Notes under the pieces: generated by a model
Seen by the model: only the letters and a program-made list of their open reading frames with translations
What the model was told of the DNA's origin: nothing
The model's database searches: none
Made by a program: the position numbers and the translations under genes
NCBI RefSeq assembly: GCF_014651675.1
Contig: NZ_BMXI01000016.1
Coordinates: 62,001 to 126,000, forward strand
Source: Roseibacillus persicicus
GTDB taxonomy: Bacteria; Verrucomicrobiota; Verrucomicrobiia; Verrucomicrobiales; Akkermansiaceae
Length of the DNA: 64,000 bases
Reading direction: 5' to 3'
In this document: in pieces, positions 2,974-21,564 of the stretch
Layout of the letters: each line of letters begins with the position of its first letter
Position numbering within the stretch: the first letter of the stretch is position 1

Positions 2974-4389
2974 ATGCGTTTCCTCTTTCTCACCCTGCTC
3001 TCCCTCGTTGGCCTACAAGCCGAGCGCCCCAACATCGTTATCATGCTCAGCGACGATCTGGGCTACGGCGAGCACCAGCATCTCAACCCCGACCGTGGCA
3101 AGATCCCGACCCCACATCTGGATACCATCGCGGCCAGCGGAATGACCTTTACCGATGCCCACAGCGGCTCTTCGGTCTGCACGCCGACTCGCTACGGACT
3201 CCTCACAGGTCGCTACTCTTGGCGAACGACTCTGCAGAGAGGGGTCCTCACCGGCGGCAAGTCTCTCATCGCAGAGGATAGAGTGACCATCGGCCATTAC
3301 CTCAAGAAGCAAGGCTACGACACGGCCATCATCGGCAAGTGGCACTTGGGAACCCTCTATGATGGCAAGCACAAGGACAAGCAAGTGCCAGTAGGCTCCA
3401 AGGTGAGCCAAGGCCCCATCGAGCGTGGTGGCTTCGACCTCTTTCGCGGCTTCCACCACGCGCGACAGATGGACATTTGGATCGAAGACCAGACCGTCAC
3501 CGAACACCTCCCGCCCGTTGAAATGCTCCCTCGCCTCACCCAAGAAGCAGTCCACTATATTTCTAGTAGAAAGAAAGAGGATGCCCCTTTCTTTCTCTAC
3601 CTGCCTTGGAATTCCCCTCACAGCCCCGTGGTACCCAGCCCCGAATGGCAGGGCAAAAGCGGCCTCAATCCCCATGCCGACTTCGTGATGCAGACCGACG
3701 ACAGCCATGGCCAGGTGATGGAAGCCTTGCGCACAACAGGACTACTGGAGAATACACTCGTGATTGTCACCTCCGACAACGGCACTTCCGCGCCCACCTC
3801 CAAGCTACCTCAATTGCTGGAGAAGGGTCACCACCCCAGCGGTCCTTTCCGCGGTTCCAAGGCCGACATTTGGGACGGCGGCCATCGTGTGCCCTTCTTG
3901 GTCTCGTGGCCGGGCAGAGTTCCACAGAAGAGCCAGTGCCCGGACCTCATTTGCCTCACCGATTGCTTTGCGACCGTGGCCGATCTTTTGGAAAAACCCG
4001 TCGCGGAAAATGTCGCGGAAGACAGCTTCAGCTTCCTCCCCCAACTCATGGGCAAAGCGAGTGAAAATTCCCGCGAGGAGGTCGTTCATCATTCCGTGGA
4101 AGGGCATTTTTCGATTCGCGATGAACGCTGGAAGCTCATTCTCTGCCCGGGTTCGGGCGGCTGGAGCACCCCCAAGGTCAGGTCCGCGCTCAAGCAAGGT
4201 CTCCCCACCGAGCAACTTTACGACATGGCAAAGGACAAAGAGGAAACCACCAACCTCGCCAGCGAAAATCCCGAAATCGTGGCAGCCCTTCGCAAGGAGC
4301 TGGAGCGCCTGATCGCCCGGGGACGTTCCACCACCGGCCCCAAGCTCACCAACGATGCACCAATTGTCTTGGAAAAGTGGCGCAAGTAG
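2974..4389 (+). CDS. secreted sulfatase, cysteine-type (arylsulfatase family)
   Basis: 471 residues. Residues 1-16 are a signal peptide ending LQA. The metal-binding aspartates D27-D28 lie in SDDLGYG. C69 of CTPTR (C-x-P-x-R) is the residue that a formylglycine-generating enzyme would oxidise to the catalytic aldehyde. The downstream TSDNGTS motif supplies the other metal ligands. The protein should hydrolyse sulfate esters, probably on polysaccharides, outside the cytoplasm; the substrate cannot be read from sequence. It starts 10 bases after queC with no clear Shine-Dalgarno. It is a clear paralogue of the sulfatase at 48612, sharing the pattern NPD, KIPTPHLD, SSVCTPTRY and LLTGRY. No formylglycine-generating enzyme gene is present here. 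Confidence 0.95.
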   Translation: MRFLFLTLLSLVGLQAERPNIVIMLSDDLGYGEHQHLNPDRGKIPTPHLDTIAASGMTFTDAHSGSSVCTPTRYGLLTGRYSWRTTLQRGVLTGGKSLIAEDRVTIGHYLKKQGYDTAIIGKWHLGTLYDGKHKDKQVPVGSKVSQGPIERGGFDLFRGFHHARQMDIWIEDQTVTEHLPPVEMLPRLTQEAVHYISSRKKEDAPFFLYLPWNSPHSPVVPSPEWQGKSGLNPHADFVMQTDDSHGQVMEALRTTGLLENTLVIVTSDNGTSAPTSKLPQLLEKGHHPSGPFRGSKADIWDGGHRVPFLVSWPGRVPQKSQCPDLICLTDCFATVADLLEKPVAENVAEDSFSFLPQLMGKASENSREEVVHHSVEGHFSIRDERWKLILCPGSGGWSTPKVRSALKQGLPTEQLYDMAKDKEETTNLASENPEIVAALRKELERLIARGRSTTGPKLTNDAPIVLEKWRK

Positions 4390-18260: not shown

Positions 18261-18992
18261 TCAGGCTTTTTCCGCCCGATGGAAAGAGCAGAGTTGCAGC
18301 TCGTCCGCCGTCAGCATTCGCCACTCGCCGGGTTGCAGGGCTGGGTCCAAGCTCAAAGGTCCCATAGTCTCGCGATGGAGGGCGGTGACTTTCACGTCGA
18401 AGCGGGCAAACATCCTCTTCACCTGATGATGCTTTCCTTCATAGATGGTGAGGAGGCATTGCCGGCCGGACAAGAGTTCAACTTGGGCGGGCTGGGTGGC
18501 GACCTGTTCTTTCGCAAACCAAATGCCCTTTTCAAAGGCCACGACTATCTCAGGAGTCACGTCACCATCGCAAGTCACCCGATAGCGTTTACCCAGCTTA
18601 CGTCCGGGTTCAGTGAGAGCCTCGGTCAAACTGCTGTCATTGGACAAAATCAACAGACCCGAGGTGAAACGGTCCAAGCGCCCTGCCAGATGCAGCTCAG
18701 TTGCCCAAGGTTCGCCAATCAGATCGACCACCGTCCGGTGCTCGAGATCAGAGGTCGCACTCACAACCCCCAACGGCTTGTGCAACATCAAAGAACGCGC
18801 CACCCGGGCCTGCAGAACCTCACTTCCACATTCAACGCGGTCGAAGGGACCCACCTGAAACGCGCCTTCGGGACAGACGACTCCATTGACTCGCACCATT
18901 CCTCTGGAAAGACGCTCCCGAACTTCGCGCCGCCCCCATTGGCCCCACTTTCCTACCATCCGATCCAAGCGCACCGCCGAATTGTCAGACAA
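18261..18992 (-). CDS. RsuA/RluB-family pseudouridine synthase
   Basis: 243 residues. An S4 RNA-binding domain occupies residues 7-60 (RLDRMVG, RERLSRGMVRVNG). The catalytic domain follows, with GRLDRFTSGLLIL at about 104-116; the Asp of RLD is the catalytic residue that attacks uridine. GKHHQVKRMF is also family-typical. It should convert a uridine in rRNA to pseudouridine; the target (16S or 23S) cannot be assigned. The frame begins at TTG 18992 or GTG 18974; neither has a good ribosome-binding site. It is divergent from the Cys-rich peptide gene across 205 bases. Confidence 0.9.
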   Translation of the reverse strand: MSDNSAVRLDRMVGKWGQWGRREVRERLSRGMVRVNGVVCPEGAFQVGPFDRVECGSEVLQARVARSLMLHKPLGVVSATSDLEHRTVVDLIGEPWATELHLAGRLDRFTSGLLILSNDSSLTEALTEPGRKLGKRYRVTCDGDVTPEIVVAFEKGIWFAKEQVATQPAQVELLSGRQCLLTIYEGKHHQVKRMFARFDVKVTALHRETMGPLSLDPALQPGEWRMLTADELQLCSFHRAEKA

Positions 18993-19123
18993 GATCGCCG
19001 GAACAACCAGATTTAGTTATTTCCCCTCTCTTTTTCGCCGGAAAAAAAGCATTGCTAACCAGTGGGTTTGGCAAAAAACCAATCTCGCGCGCAAATTTCT
19101 TCAAAAAAGTTCAGACAAACCGG

Positions 19124-19151
19124 TTGCGGAGCGGCTTTTATCTCATAGATT
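19124..19151 (+). promoter_or_regulatory. possible sigma-70 promoter for the Cys-rich peptide
   Basis: TTGCGG (19124-19129) and TAGATT (19146-19151) are 16 bases apart, 47 bases before the ATG at 19198. Both boxes are imperfect, so this is only a candidate. Confidence 0.35.
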
Positions 19152-19197
19152 ACTGCTGAGCTCAGCTCGTTGAATCGACTACAACCAAATCAAAACT

Positions 19198-19488
19198 ATG
19201 AAATCAATCCTGTCCACACTCCTCGCTTCCCTCTTCCTTGCAGGCTTCGCTCTCGCGGGCGACTGTGAAAAGTGCAAGAAGGGCGACAAGAAAGAAGAAG
19301 CTCTCATCGCTGGCGACTGCGAGAAGTGCAAGAAAGGCGACAAGAAGGAAGAAGCTTTGATCGCTGGTGACTGCAAGAAGTGCAAAAAAGGCGACAAGAA
19401 AGAAGAAGCTGCCCTTGCTCATTGCGGAAAGTGCAAGAAAGACGACAAGCACGAAGAAGAAGAGAAGGAAGAGGTTTTCGCAGCCTAA
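19198..19488 (+). CDS. secreted Cys-rich, Lys/Glu-rich tandem repeat peptide
   Basis: 96 residues: a clean signal peptide (1-20, ending FALA) and then four 18-residue units at 21-38, 39-56, 57-74 and 75-92. Units 1-3 follow the pattern GDCxKCKKGDKKEEA; unit 4 is diverged (HCGKCKKDD). Each unit carries one CxxC pair, so the mature protein has eight cysteines and is otherwise almost all Lys, Glu, Asp, Gly and Ala. Codons are highly uniform (AAG, GAC, GAA), as in well-expressed genes. A good hairpin terminator follows 28 bases after the stop, so it is a single-gene unit. I know no named family. Metal binding or redox buffering in the periplasm are inferences; a structural disulfide-linked role is also possible. 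Confidence 0.82.
   Translation: MKSILSTLLASLFLAGFALAGDCEKCKKGDKKEEALIAGDCEKCKKGDKKEEALIAGDCKKCKKGDKKEEAALAHCGKCKKDDKHEEEEKEEVFAA
19258..19473 (+). repeat. 54-bp tandem repeat, four units, inside the Cys-rich peptide gene
   Basis: Units at 19258-19311, 19312-19365, 19366-19419 and 19420-19473. The first three are nearly identical in DNA, which points to recent duplication; the fourth is diverged. The unit is an exact multiple of three, so gain or loss keeps the frame. Confidence 0.9.
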
Positions 19489-19516
19489 GCGAACCCTTAC
19501 TTAATCAAGACTTTAA

Positions 19517-19543
19517 AGCTCGTCGCTCCGACGGGCTTTTTTT
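19517..19543 (+). terminator. intrinsic terminator after the Cys-rich peptide gene
   Basis: AGCTCGTCG and CGACGGGCT form a 9-bp stem with one G-T pair and a 3-base loop, followed by a run of seven T. It ends the single-gene transcript before the SDR gene. Confidence 0.85.
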
Positions 19544-19589
19544 GTGCCTCAATATCTGGACTTTCCGAGGATTGGGCGCAACTTGCCAA

Positions 19590-20282
19590 ATGGCTAAAAT
19601 ACTCCTCATCGGCGGAAATTCAGGTATCGGACTGGCGAGCGCGCGCAAGCTGAAGGCTGACGGGCACGAAGTCATTGCGGCCGCACGGGGAAAAGACCAA
19701 TTGGAAAGCCTTGGAATCCCCTGCCAAGAATTCGATGCAACCGCAGTGAGCAAACTCACACTACCGGAACAACTCGATGGGCTCGCCTATTTTCCCGGCA
19801 CGATCAACCTGAAACCGTTTGCGCGCCTCGACAAGGACGCCTTTCTCAACGACCTGCAAATCAACACTCTGGCAGCCGTCGAGGTGATTCAACAAGCCCT
19901 CCCTTCCCTCAAAAAGTCTTCGGCAGCCTCCGTCGTTCTTTTCTCGACCGTTGCGGTTCAACTCGGGATGCCGTTTCACTCCTCAATCGCAGTCTCCAAA
20001 GGCGCCATCGAGGGCCTCACCCGCGCCTTGGCCGCAGAACTGGCTCCAACGGTACGGGTCAACGCCATCGCTCCCTCCCTGACCGATACTCCCCTCGCCT
20101 CCAGCCTAATCTCGAGTGAAGACAAGCGAACCAATGCCGAGAACCGTCATCCCCTCAAACGACTGGCCAGCGCTGAAGAGTTGGCTAATTTGACCGCCTA
20201 TCTCTTGGGCTCCGAATCCGCCCCCCTCACCGGCCAAATTCTTCATCCGGACAATGGTCTATCGTCCGTGAAACTCTTCTAG
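19590..20282 (+). CDS. SDR-family oxidoreductase lacking the catalytic tyrosine
   Basis: 230 residues from ATG 19590. The start is set by the Rossmann strand MAKILLIGGNSGIG; the frame is open further upstream but only through the terminator. The nucleotide motif GGNSGIG is at 8-14, S119 is the expected catalytic serine and K137 the lysine. The tyrosine of the YxxxK motif is replaced by I133 in HSSIAVSKG, so normal proton transfer cannot occur. The rest is well conserved (VRVNAIAPSLTDTPLA at 156-170, TGQILHPDNG near the end). I recall similar Tyr-less members in other bacteria, which would make this a subgroup trait and not decay. Function unknown. Confidence 0.85.
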   Translation: MAKILLIGGNSGIGLASARKLKADGHEVIAAARGKDQLESLGIPCQEFDATAVSKLTLPEQLDGLAYFPGTINLKPFARLDKDAFLNDLQINTLAAVEVIQQALPSLKKSSAASVVLFSTVAVQLGMPFHSSIAVSKGAIEGLTRALAAELAPTVRVNAIAPSLTDTPLASSLISSEDKRTNAENRHPLKRLASAEELANLTAYLLGSESAPLTGQILHPDNGLSSVKLF

Positions 20283-20775: not shown

Positions 20776-21099
20776 ATCGAAACGACTGACGCCAGCCAAG
20801 CCTTTGCCGCCCTCGCCCATCCCGTGCGATTGGAAGTCTTTCGCACCTTGATCTGGAACTCACCAGAGGCAATCGCAGCGGGACAACTGGCGGAGAAGAT
20901 GGAGATCCCAGCCAACACTTTGTCTTTCCACTTAAAGGAACTGACCAATGCCGGACTGGTATTCTCCCGTCGCGAAGGCCGCTCCATCCTCTACGCGGTT
21001 CAGCCAACAACCGTCCGCGAGCTGGTGACCTTTTTCGTCGGGCATTGCTGCCAGGGGCGCCCCGAGCTGTGCCAACCCGAATCTGACAACTGCTGTTAA
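20776..21099 (+). CDS. ArsR/SmtB-family transcriptional regulator
   Basis: 107 residues if read from ATC 20776, 91 from the first standard start, GTG 20824. The winged-helix domain is clear (VRLEVFRTL, LAEKMEIPANTLSFHLKEL, GLVFSRREGRSILYAV). The N-terminal ETTDASQAFAALAHP, which forms helix 1 in this family, is encoded upstream of the GTG with no ATG, GTG or TTG before the stop at 20770. Thus the GTG start would remove a conserved helix, and ATC sits where homologues have Met. The C-terminus carries thiols: HCC, LC and a terminal CC pair, likely arsenite or other soft-metal ligands. It probably represses itself and the next gene, which starts 9 bases after its stop. Confidence 0.85.
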   Translation: METTDASQAFAALAHPVRLEVFRTLIWNSPEAIAAGQLAEKMEIPANTLSFHLKELTNAGLVFSRREGRSILYAVQPTTVRELVTFFVGHCCQGRPELCQPESDNCC

Positions 21100-21108
21100 A
21101 TAAAAGTT

Positions 21109-21564
21109 ATGATGACTATCGCCGAACTGAAATCCGCCCTCGCTCCTCACTCGGACAAGATCCTGCAAATCCAGCTTCCAGACCAATCGCTGGTGCCCGC
21201 GCACTTCCACATCACCGAGGTCGCCTTTCTCAAGAAGGACTTCATCGATTGTGGCGGCACGATTCGCCATGAAGGACGTTGCCAGCTGCAGGCCTGGGTC
21301 GCCGATGACTACGACCACCGGGTGCCTGTCTCCCGCTTTCTCAAAATCCTGGAACACGGAGCTCCCGTCCTTCCCACCGAAGCCCTTCCGGTGGAGGTGG
21401 AGTATGAGCACCCCGTCATTTCACAATTTCCTCTCGTCGAGGTGAAAGTGACAGACGAGACCGTGACCCTGGTGGTGGAAAATCGCCACACTGACTGCTT
21501 GGCGAAGGATGTCTGCGGACTCACTCCCGAGCCCTCGTGTGCCCCCGGCTCCGGCTGCTGCTAA
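21109..21564 (+). CDS. DUF6428-like protein, partner of the ArsR regulator
   Basis: 151 residues, soluble. The central LVPAHFHITEVAFLKKDFIDCGG and QLQAWVADDYDHR resemble DUF6428 proteins, which I recall next to arsR in arsenic-related operons of Bacteroidota and others. The C-terminus is cysteine-rich (DCLAKDVCG, SCAP, ending GCC). Second in a two-gene unit with arsR; no arsenate reductase, ArsB/Acr3 or methyltransferase follows. Function is unknown; metalloid binding or stress response is inferred from context and cysteines. ATG at 21109 or 21112 are both possible. Confidence 0.72.
   Translation: MMTIAELKSALAPHSDKILQIQLPDQSLVPAHFHITEVAFLKKDFIDCGGTIRHEGRCQLQAWVADDYDHRVPVSRFLKILEHGAPVLPTEALPVEVEYEHPVISQFPLVEVKVTDETVTLVVENRHTDCLAKDVCGLTPEPSCAPGSGCC

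Follow-up and report, generated by a model that had tools for sequence, protein, structure and literature searches.

The gene at 19198–19488 and its repeat units

A 64,000-nucleotide stretch of the Roseibacillus persicicus genome (contig NZ_BMXI01000016.1, positions 62,001–126,000; this whole stretch is called the window below) contains, at 19198–19488, an open reading frame (ORF) in which a signal-peptide-like N terminus is followed by four short units, each with one CxxC motif and a charged tail. The gene is made up as follows.

19198–19488, plus strand: gene for a predicted exported cysteine-pair repeat protein of 96 amino acids (from the sequence and its homologues)
19198–19257, plus strand: probable signal peptide, residues 1–20, MKSILSTLLASLFLAGFALA, with probable cleavage after ALA (from the sequence, judged by eye)
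19258–19311, plus strand: unit 1, GDCEKCKKGDKKEEALIA (translation and unit comparison)
19312–19365, plus strand: unit 2, GDCEKCKKGDKKEEALIA, the same protein as unit 1 with 6 bases different (translation and unit comparison)
19366–19419, plus strand: unit 3, GDCKKCKKGDKKEEAALA (translation and unit comparison)
19420–19485, plus strand: unit 4, HCGKCKKDDKHEEEEKEEVFAA, 22 residues, histidine type (translation; HCGKC-type units occur repeatedly in relatives)

The signal peptide region aligns with the N termini of 18 relatives and, as far as tested, agrees with the secretion proposed in the original prediction, which had been made from the bare sequence. That prediction also described four 18-residue CxxC units; the four units and their charged tails stand, and the length holds for units 1–3. 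Its statement that the first three units are nearly identical in DNA was too strong, as they differ at 6 (units 1 and 2), 10 (1 and 3) and 9 (2 and 3) of 54 bases. Since units 1 and 2 encode the same protein despite their 6 differences, the repeat is held by selection and is not merely a fresh duplication, and the synonymous changes among the units likewise argue for selection on the protein. The ORF is a real one under selection; that it is no chance frame follows from the 83 matching genomes among 260 of its taxonomic family. The genome itself holds a single copy of the gene.

A lineage-specific family of cysteine-pair arrays

The gene belongs to a lineage-specific and apparently undescribed family that is widespread in relatives of Akkermansia. 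The 83 genomes with matches at E 1e-3 or better fall in 5 of the 16 genera of the taxonomic family. A profile search of the order found matches in 88 of 386 genomes, spread over 7 of 50 genera; 87 of these genomes belong to the same family. A phylum-wide draw gave 15 of 387, of which 14 lie within the family and the fifteenth is a weak match (E 3.6e-5) in a distant one. With the family-wide and order-wide searches combined, 17 of the 18 genomes of the genus here labelled g7 and 63 of the 73 of genus g13 carry a match, while neither search found one in g3, probably Akkermansia itself. Where matches have names these are metagenome-assembled genomes labelled Verrucomicrobiae, Akkermansiaceae or, once, Akkermansia muciniphila (locus L004, contig CAMDCV010000029.1), the last name being probably wrong. 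A plasmid search gave no match at E 0.01, a search of PHROGs matched six families with one member each, and no paper on the family was present among the literature matches listed. No Pfam model came near its cut-off for the protein and no NCBIfam model reached its own, the best being HPE1_fam_CxxC (NF041110) with 21.8 bits against a cut-off of 45, which, as far as tested, bears out the claim that the peptide belongs to no known family.

For comparison 94 loci were extracted from 92 genomes (G133 and G142 contributing two each). Ten of these, truncated or frame-broken, were dropped before composition, selection, cysteine gaps, unit DNA and terminators were counted, leaving 84 intact members; counts on upstream regions use 91 of the 94 loci. 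The pairing of cysteines is the steadiest property of these proteins. Exactly two cysteines are present in 364 of 425 units (units were split with a regular expression; this failed to divide 5 proteins and ran some units together), and the members of a pair are separated by 2 residues in 187 units, 3 in 70, 4 in 85, 5 in 20, and 1 or 6 in one unit each. Neighbouring cysteines are separated by gaps of 2–4 residues in 478 cases, about twice the average of 220 in 200 shuffles, none of which gave more than 253. From residue 21 onward each protein contains 6 to 23 cysteines (median 12), the number being even in 69 proteins and odd in 15. Spacing, unit length and copy number all vary between members, and arrays range from about 3 to 10 units.

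The mature part consists of 26% Lys, 17% Glu, 14% Asp, 11% Cys and 10% Gly, so that Lys, Glu and Asp together make up 57%, and the 9529 residues from position 21 on include one Arg, one Tyr, 11 Phe and no Trp. CxC occurs 12 times and CC once across the family; net charge has a median of -4 and ranges from -30 to +15. Units mostly end in hydrophobic residues with a final Ala (TLA, ALA, LLA and similar), and 80 of the 84 proteins terminate in Ala. An AlphaFold2 model has no confident fold (mean predicted local distance difference test score 45.5), and a search of solved structures gave no match (best E 0.33).

Differences between units of one array are mainly synonymous. In 56 of the 84 members, each weighted once, the proportion of synonymous sites that differ (pS) is 0.316 and that of nonsynonymous sites (pN) is 0.040, a pN/pS of 0.13, taken over equal-length unit pairs with at most 40% differing residues, a restriction that lowers pN. 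One g7 member (L050) uses five different DNA sequences for six units identical in protein, whereas four identical units of a g13 member (L144) have two DNA versions that differ at one base; both old and recent duplications therefore occur.

One genome, G133, has besides a normal cysteine array (L117) a second exported-looking array, seen in two pieces on the minus strand at contig ends (L187, at the low end of G133:C27:1-6000, and L176, at the high end of G133:C28). At one contig end a signal-peptide-like start leads into Lys/Glu units that end in LLAGD, and at the other there are more such units (..ETLLAGDKKKKDKEE..), with no cysteine in the parts seen of either. The two pieces may be one gene. 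Kinship of this array to the family is putative, the likeness being one of unit ends and composition.

Expression signals and gene neighbourhood

The codon adaptation index (CAI) of the gene, 0.796, exceeds that of all 43 non-overlapping window ORFs of at least 150 amino acids (median 0.615). It lies near the top of the reference set (mean 0.722, range 0.58–0.80), made up of 16 ORFs on the plus strand in the region of the ribosomal protein operon, which were not curated individually and probably include one or two spurious ones. Random recodings of the same protein reach this CAI in 0.15% of 2000 trials, and the codon usage of the gene is ribosomal-protein-like. Three further features flank the coding sequence.

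19515–19547, plus strand: intrinsic terminator, an 11-pair stem (19515–19539) followed by a T tract, hairpin -13.8 kcal/mol (hairpin scan)
19158–19197, plus strand: leader with no Shine-Dalgarno-like motif, A/C-rich towards the start codon (ACCAACCAACC..) (composition)
19120–19151, plus strand: putative promoter, TTGCGG (19124–19129), 16 bases, TAGATT (19146–19151), with TCTCA at 19141–19145 (by eye)

A terminator scan of the window returned 2 sites against a mean of 1.8 in shuffled sequence, so that the window by itself proves little; across the family 80 of 84 members have a terminator-like hairpin behind the gene, a feature of 12.6% of the 913 ORFs used as controls. In the 40-base stretch preceding the start codon, A+C amounts to 76.5% in the family (n = 91) against 52.7% in 895 control ORFs, and ACCAA is found in 68% of family leaders against 4.6% of controls; the leader of the window gene, at 65% A+C, is weaker than is typical of the family. 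The terminator and the uniform codons noticed in the original prediction are thus confirmed, and codon use, terminator and leader together lend indirect support to its expectation of high expression.

The putative promoter in the window was assigned by eye from comparison with relatives, and a sigma-70 consensus scan of 18900–19700 found no promoter. A motif search of the 91 upstream regions revealed a GAATAA or GAACAA sequence downstream of an AT-rich block. In g7 the element takes the form GGGAACAAA, 15 bases, TTCTCA, with fixed spacing. Its exact form occurs 7 times in 7 of the 18 g7 genomes, in every case at the family gene (six in the extracted loci and the seventh, in G140, 79 bases before the start codon), and is absent from the other 11; with one mismatch allowed there are 15 matches, 12 at family genes and 3 elsewhere. 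The corresponding g13 pattern, with one mismatch allowed, gave 20 matches in 73 genomes, comprising 13 at known family genes, one at locus L209, 4 inside the end of a ribosomal protein S21-like gene (named by eye) and 2 elsewhere. This pattern is too strict for most members, as it finds the family gene in 14 of the 73 genomes. A search for other genes sharing the element in these 18 g7 and 73 g13 genomes disclosed no regulon, and the element, found almost only at the family gene in the two genera, is a putative dedicated promoter, which may be of the extracytoplasmic function (ECF) or the sigma-70 type, or else an operator. The window region has no clear GAAYAA block of the g7 and g13 kind, which makes the element a partial rather than a general feature of the family.

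Two side observations concern these upstream regions. The member at L209 (G156:C215:1-9000, gene from about base 3702), which the protein searches missed and the promoter element alone brought to light, has very short 13-residue units (GCKKECDDEAVLA). Upstream of nine g7 genes (L049, L050, L051, L116, L118, L119, L128, L130 and L138) GGAAC and, 17 bases from it, GTTCT or GTTCC make up an inverted repeat that is imperfect in general but perfect at L049 (TTGGAAC/GTTCCAA) and L128 (GGGAAC/GTTCCC); it could be an operator or an ECF-like promoter private to the gene.

In the window the gene is flanked on one side by a divergent pseudouridine synthase gene and on the other by a short-chain dehydrogenase gene (19590–20282), beyond which are an ArsR-like HTH_20 gene and then a DUF6428 gene (20824–21564 for the two together). 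The DUF6428 product has C-terminal cysteines, and the HTH_20 and DUF6428 genes are possibly a metal- or arsenic-responsive pair. A dehydrogenase gene on the same strand lies 3' of the family gene in 6 of the 93 other loci (L046, L051, L056, L129, L130 and L151; one in g1, one in g16 and four in g7, with genus labels, here and in the neighbour counts below, assigned by hand from search tables), or in 7 of 94 with the window, and the match begins 143–181 bases past the stop codon. Because of this common placement we regard the g1, g7 and g16 copies as probable orthologues at a long-established site. We do not read the dehydrogenase as a functional partner, because a terminator separates the two genes in the window and 87 loci have no dehydrogenase at this place. 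The pseudouridine synthase gene is upstream in one of the 93 other loci.

Elsewhere the neighbours are conserved mostly within a genus. There are 27 neighbour clusters that span at least two genera, and those among the 25 listed mostly differ in distance or orientation, with the exception of four g7 loci and one g13 locus that have matching upstream genes; groups confined to g13, extending to as many as 30 of 60 g13 loci, read by eye like tgt, yajC and secD. Across the 94 loci there was no consistent neighbour, metal gene, sensor, protease or transporter, and the gene is best seen as a stand-alone single-gene unit.

Possible functions and comparison with known systems

The reading we favour, at a probability of roughly 0.4, is that the protein is an exported poly-dithiol sponge, abundant and unmodified, that would take up soft metals or oxidants. 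In this scheme a free-standing and probably strongly expressed gene would yield a product that leaves the cytoplasm through Sec, loses its signal peptide to signal peptidase I and remains unfolded in the periplasm or outside the cell. Each unit would present one cysteine pair on a hydrophilic Lys/Glu/Asp spacer, the chain forming a string of independent two-thiol modules, and each pair would bind a soft metal ion of the Cu, Zn, Cd, Hg or As(III) type or oxidise reversibly to a disulfide. Such a sponge would buffer the envelope of members of the lineage that we infer to be free-living or aquatic. Ribosomal-protein-like codons, a terminator and the lack of a consistent partner fit a self-sufficient bulk product, and the paired cysteines, the pN/pS of 0.13, the near-absence of aromatic residues and arginine and the lack of a fold count for the favoured reading as well.

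The state of the thiols was approached through oxidative folding genes in 58 relatives, 14 of which hold the family gene. Holders were fixed by reading translated matches; nine further weak matches kept as loci have no family-like frame, and a few weak matches with no locus, at E 0.39 or worse (e.g. G011, G023 and G049), were left out of the check. DsbA (PF01323) was found in none of the 14 holders, in a search that did not extend to DsbB and other oxidases, and VKOR is present in 6 of 14 holders, the window's genome included, against 19 of 44 non-holders. With DsbA missing and VKOR in only 6, reduced thiols are conceivable in the other 8.

Several observations weigh against the sponge. The VKOR-type protein of the window's genome means that the cysteine pairs there may be disulfides, and VKOR is as common in holders as in non-holders. 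Purifying selection on the charged tails, with the recurring ..LA ends, goes beyond what a plain chelator would need, CxC and CC motifs are nearly absent, and the ArsR, DUF6428 and response-regulator genes of the window have no counterpart in the other 93 loci. The strongest is the cysteine-free array of G133, which a purely thiol function leaves unexplained. The chelator or thiol buffer of the original prediction fits the paired cysteines, while a thiol-only role is weakened by this array.

The same observations bear on the alternatives. The cross-linked coat also suggested in the original prediction is less favoured because the cysteines are in close pairs rather than evenly spaced. An envelope or matrix scaffold, in which arrays would be networked by interchain disulfides into a flexible layer or glue, is unlikely, though it would suit an exported, repetitive protein with units alike within an array (as in L050), a freely varying copy number and a VKOR-type protein in the window's genome. 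With cysteines in close pairs, looping inside a unit is favoured over interchain bonds; relatives differ widely in the length and spacing of their repeats, and one genome has the cysteine-free look-alike. That look-alike, with its similar unit ends, speaks for a hydrophilin-like protectant, in which the near-neutral, highly charged, unfolded chain would matter (in crowding, desiccation, osmotic or acid stress) and the cysteines would be secondary; the Lys, Glu, Asp and Gly content and the median charge point the same way, as do weak matches of two of 19 members to the acid-shock model Asr. We consider the protectant less probable again, as nothing else in the family is as constant as the cysteine pairs, the Asr matches are not significant and a single cysteine-free array, of unproven kinship, was seen.

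A further rival takes the unit ends as its starting point. They resemble the end of the signal peptide (two small or aliphatic residues and an Ala, followed by the next cysteine pair), the C termini end in Ala likewise, and units are held alike within an array, all of which would suit a polyprotein cut by a protease after the ..LA ends into short two-thiol peptides that act outside the cell. Tandem duplication of a module yields the same architecture, however, no protease or transporter is consistently linked to the gene and some boundaries vary, so we give the polyprotein rather little credence, a shade below the protectant. Equally doubtful is a combined version, a lineage-specific exported array in which a dedicated promoter would drive bulk synthesis of near-identical two-thiol units, alike within a species and different between species, that would be clipped at ..LA into metallophore-like peptides or would co-assemble; if true, it would be an exported thiol system with no modifying enzyme or fixed partner gene.

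Known families offer partial likenesses to the repeat protein. HPE1_fam_CxxC, which has weak matches in 9 of 19 members, shares the N-terminal signal peptide followed by CxxC but aligns only with residues 1–53. Pfam matches over the 19 members are scattered over single members (best PF00451 Toxin_2, E 5e-5 in one member), and we take these as matches of cysteine composition; the cation-efflux model CzcI matches 3 of 19 weakly and not significantly (best E 0.0061). The chlamydial cysteine-rich outer membrane proteins are also exported, cysteine-rich and from the same superphylum, but differ in architecture, and no sequence link to them appeared in the family searches. Asr (NF033636) is likewise repetitive, charged and exported, matches 2 of 19 members (best E 0.012) and is not known to have cysteine pairs. 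As in metallothioneins, the protein is small, cysteine-rich, nearly free of aromatic residues and lysine-rich, with cysteines in pairs. Metallothioneins consist of 20–30% Cys, against 11% in the family, and usually have CxC and CC motifs, whereas the present proteins are exported tandem arrays of one module in which those motifs are nearly absent; no metallothionein model was matched in the Pfam and NCBIfam scans (in one of them among the best 25 of 28 families).

The nearest known architecture is that of the Buf_EGKCG/oxazolin (HvfA) precursors of copper-binding ribosomally synthesised and post-translationally modified peptides (RiPPs), which are modified by MNIO enzymes. According to PMC12452194, these precursors combine a Sec signal peptide with a variable number of short two-cysteine repeats, of 17 residues with two EGKCG motifs. 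The present family differs in its Asp/Glu/Lys tails, its ..LA unit ends and its lineage. The HvfA model has a weak match in one of 19 members (E 0.033) and none to the window protein at E 1. MNIO (PF05114) is absent from the window's genome and from 11 of the 14 holders; 3 of 14 holders have it, as do 6 of 44 non-holders, and in the 3 holders it is never adjacent to the gene, being on a different contig or at a distance of 1.6 Mb. An MNIO-modified RiPP was rejected on these grounds, and a bufferin- or oxazolin-type copper peptide made in this way is highly improbable; PMC12452194 states that it is rare for a precursor of this type to occur in the absence of MNIO, while allowing that a few may work without modification. 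If the poly-dithiol sponge is the right reading, relatives of Akkermansia would be spending strong expression on one gene whose exported product, a chain of thiol pairs, needs no maturation enzyme, and, genus g3 being without a match, the gene may mark a difference between life in oxygenated, metal-exposed water and in the gut. The arrays, with about 3 to 10 units and altered cysteine spacing, would offer a natural series in which spacing can be set against metal or redox behaviour, and the family would parallel the recently described bufferins and oxazolins in simpler form.
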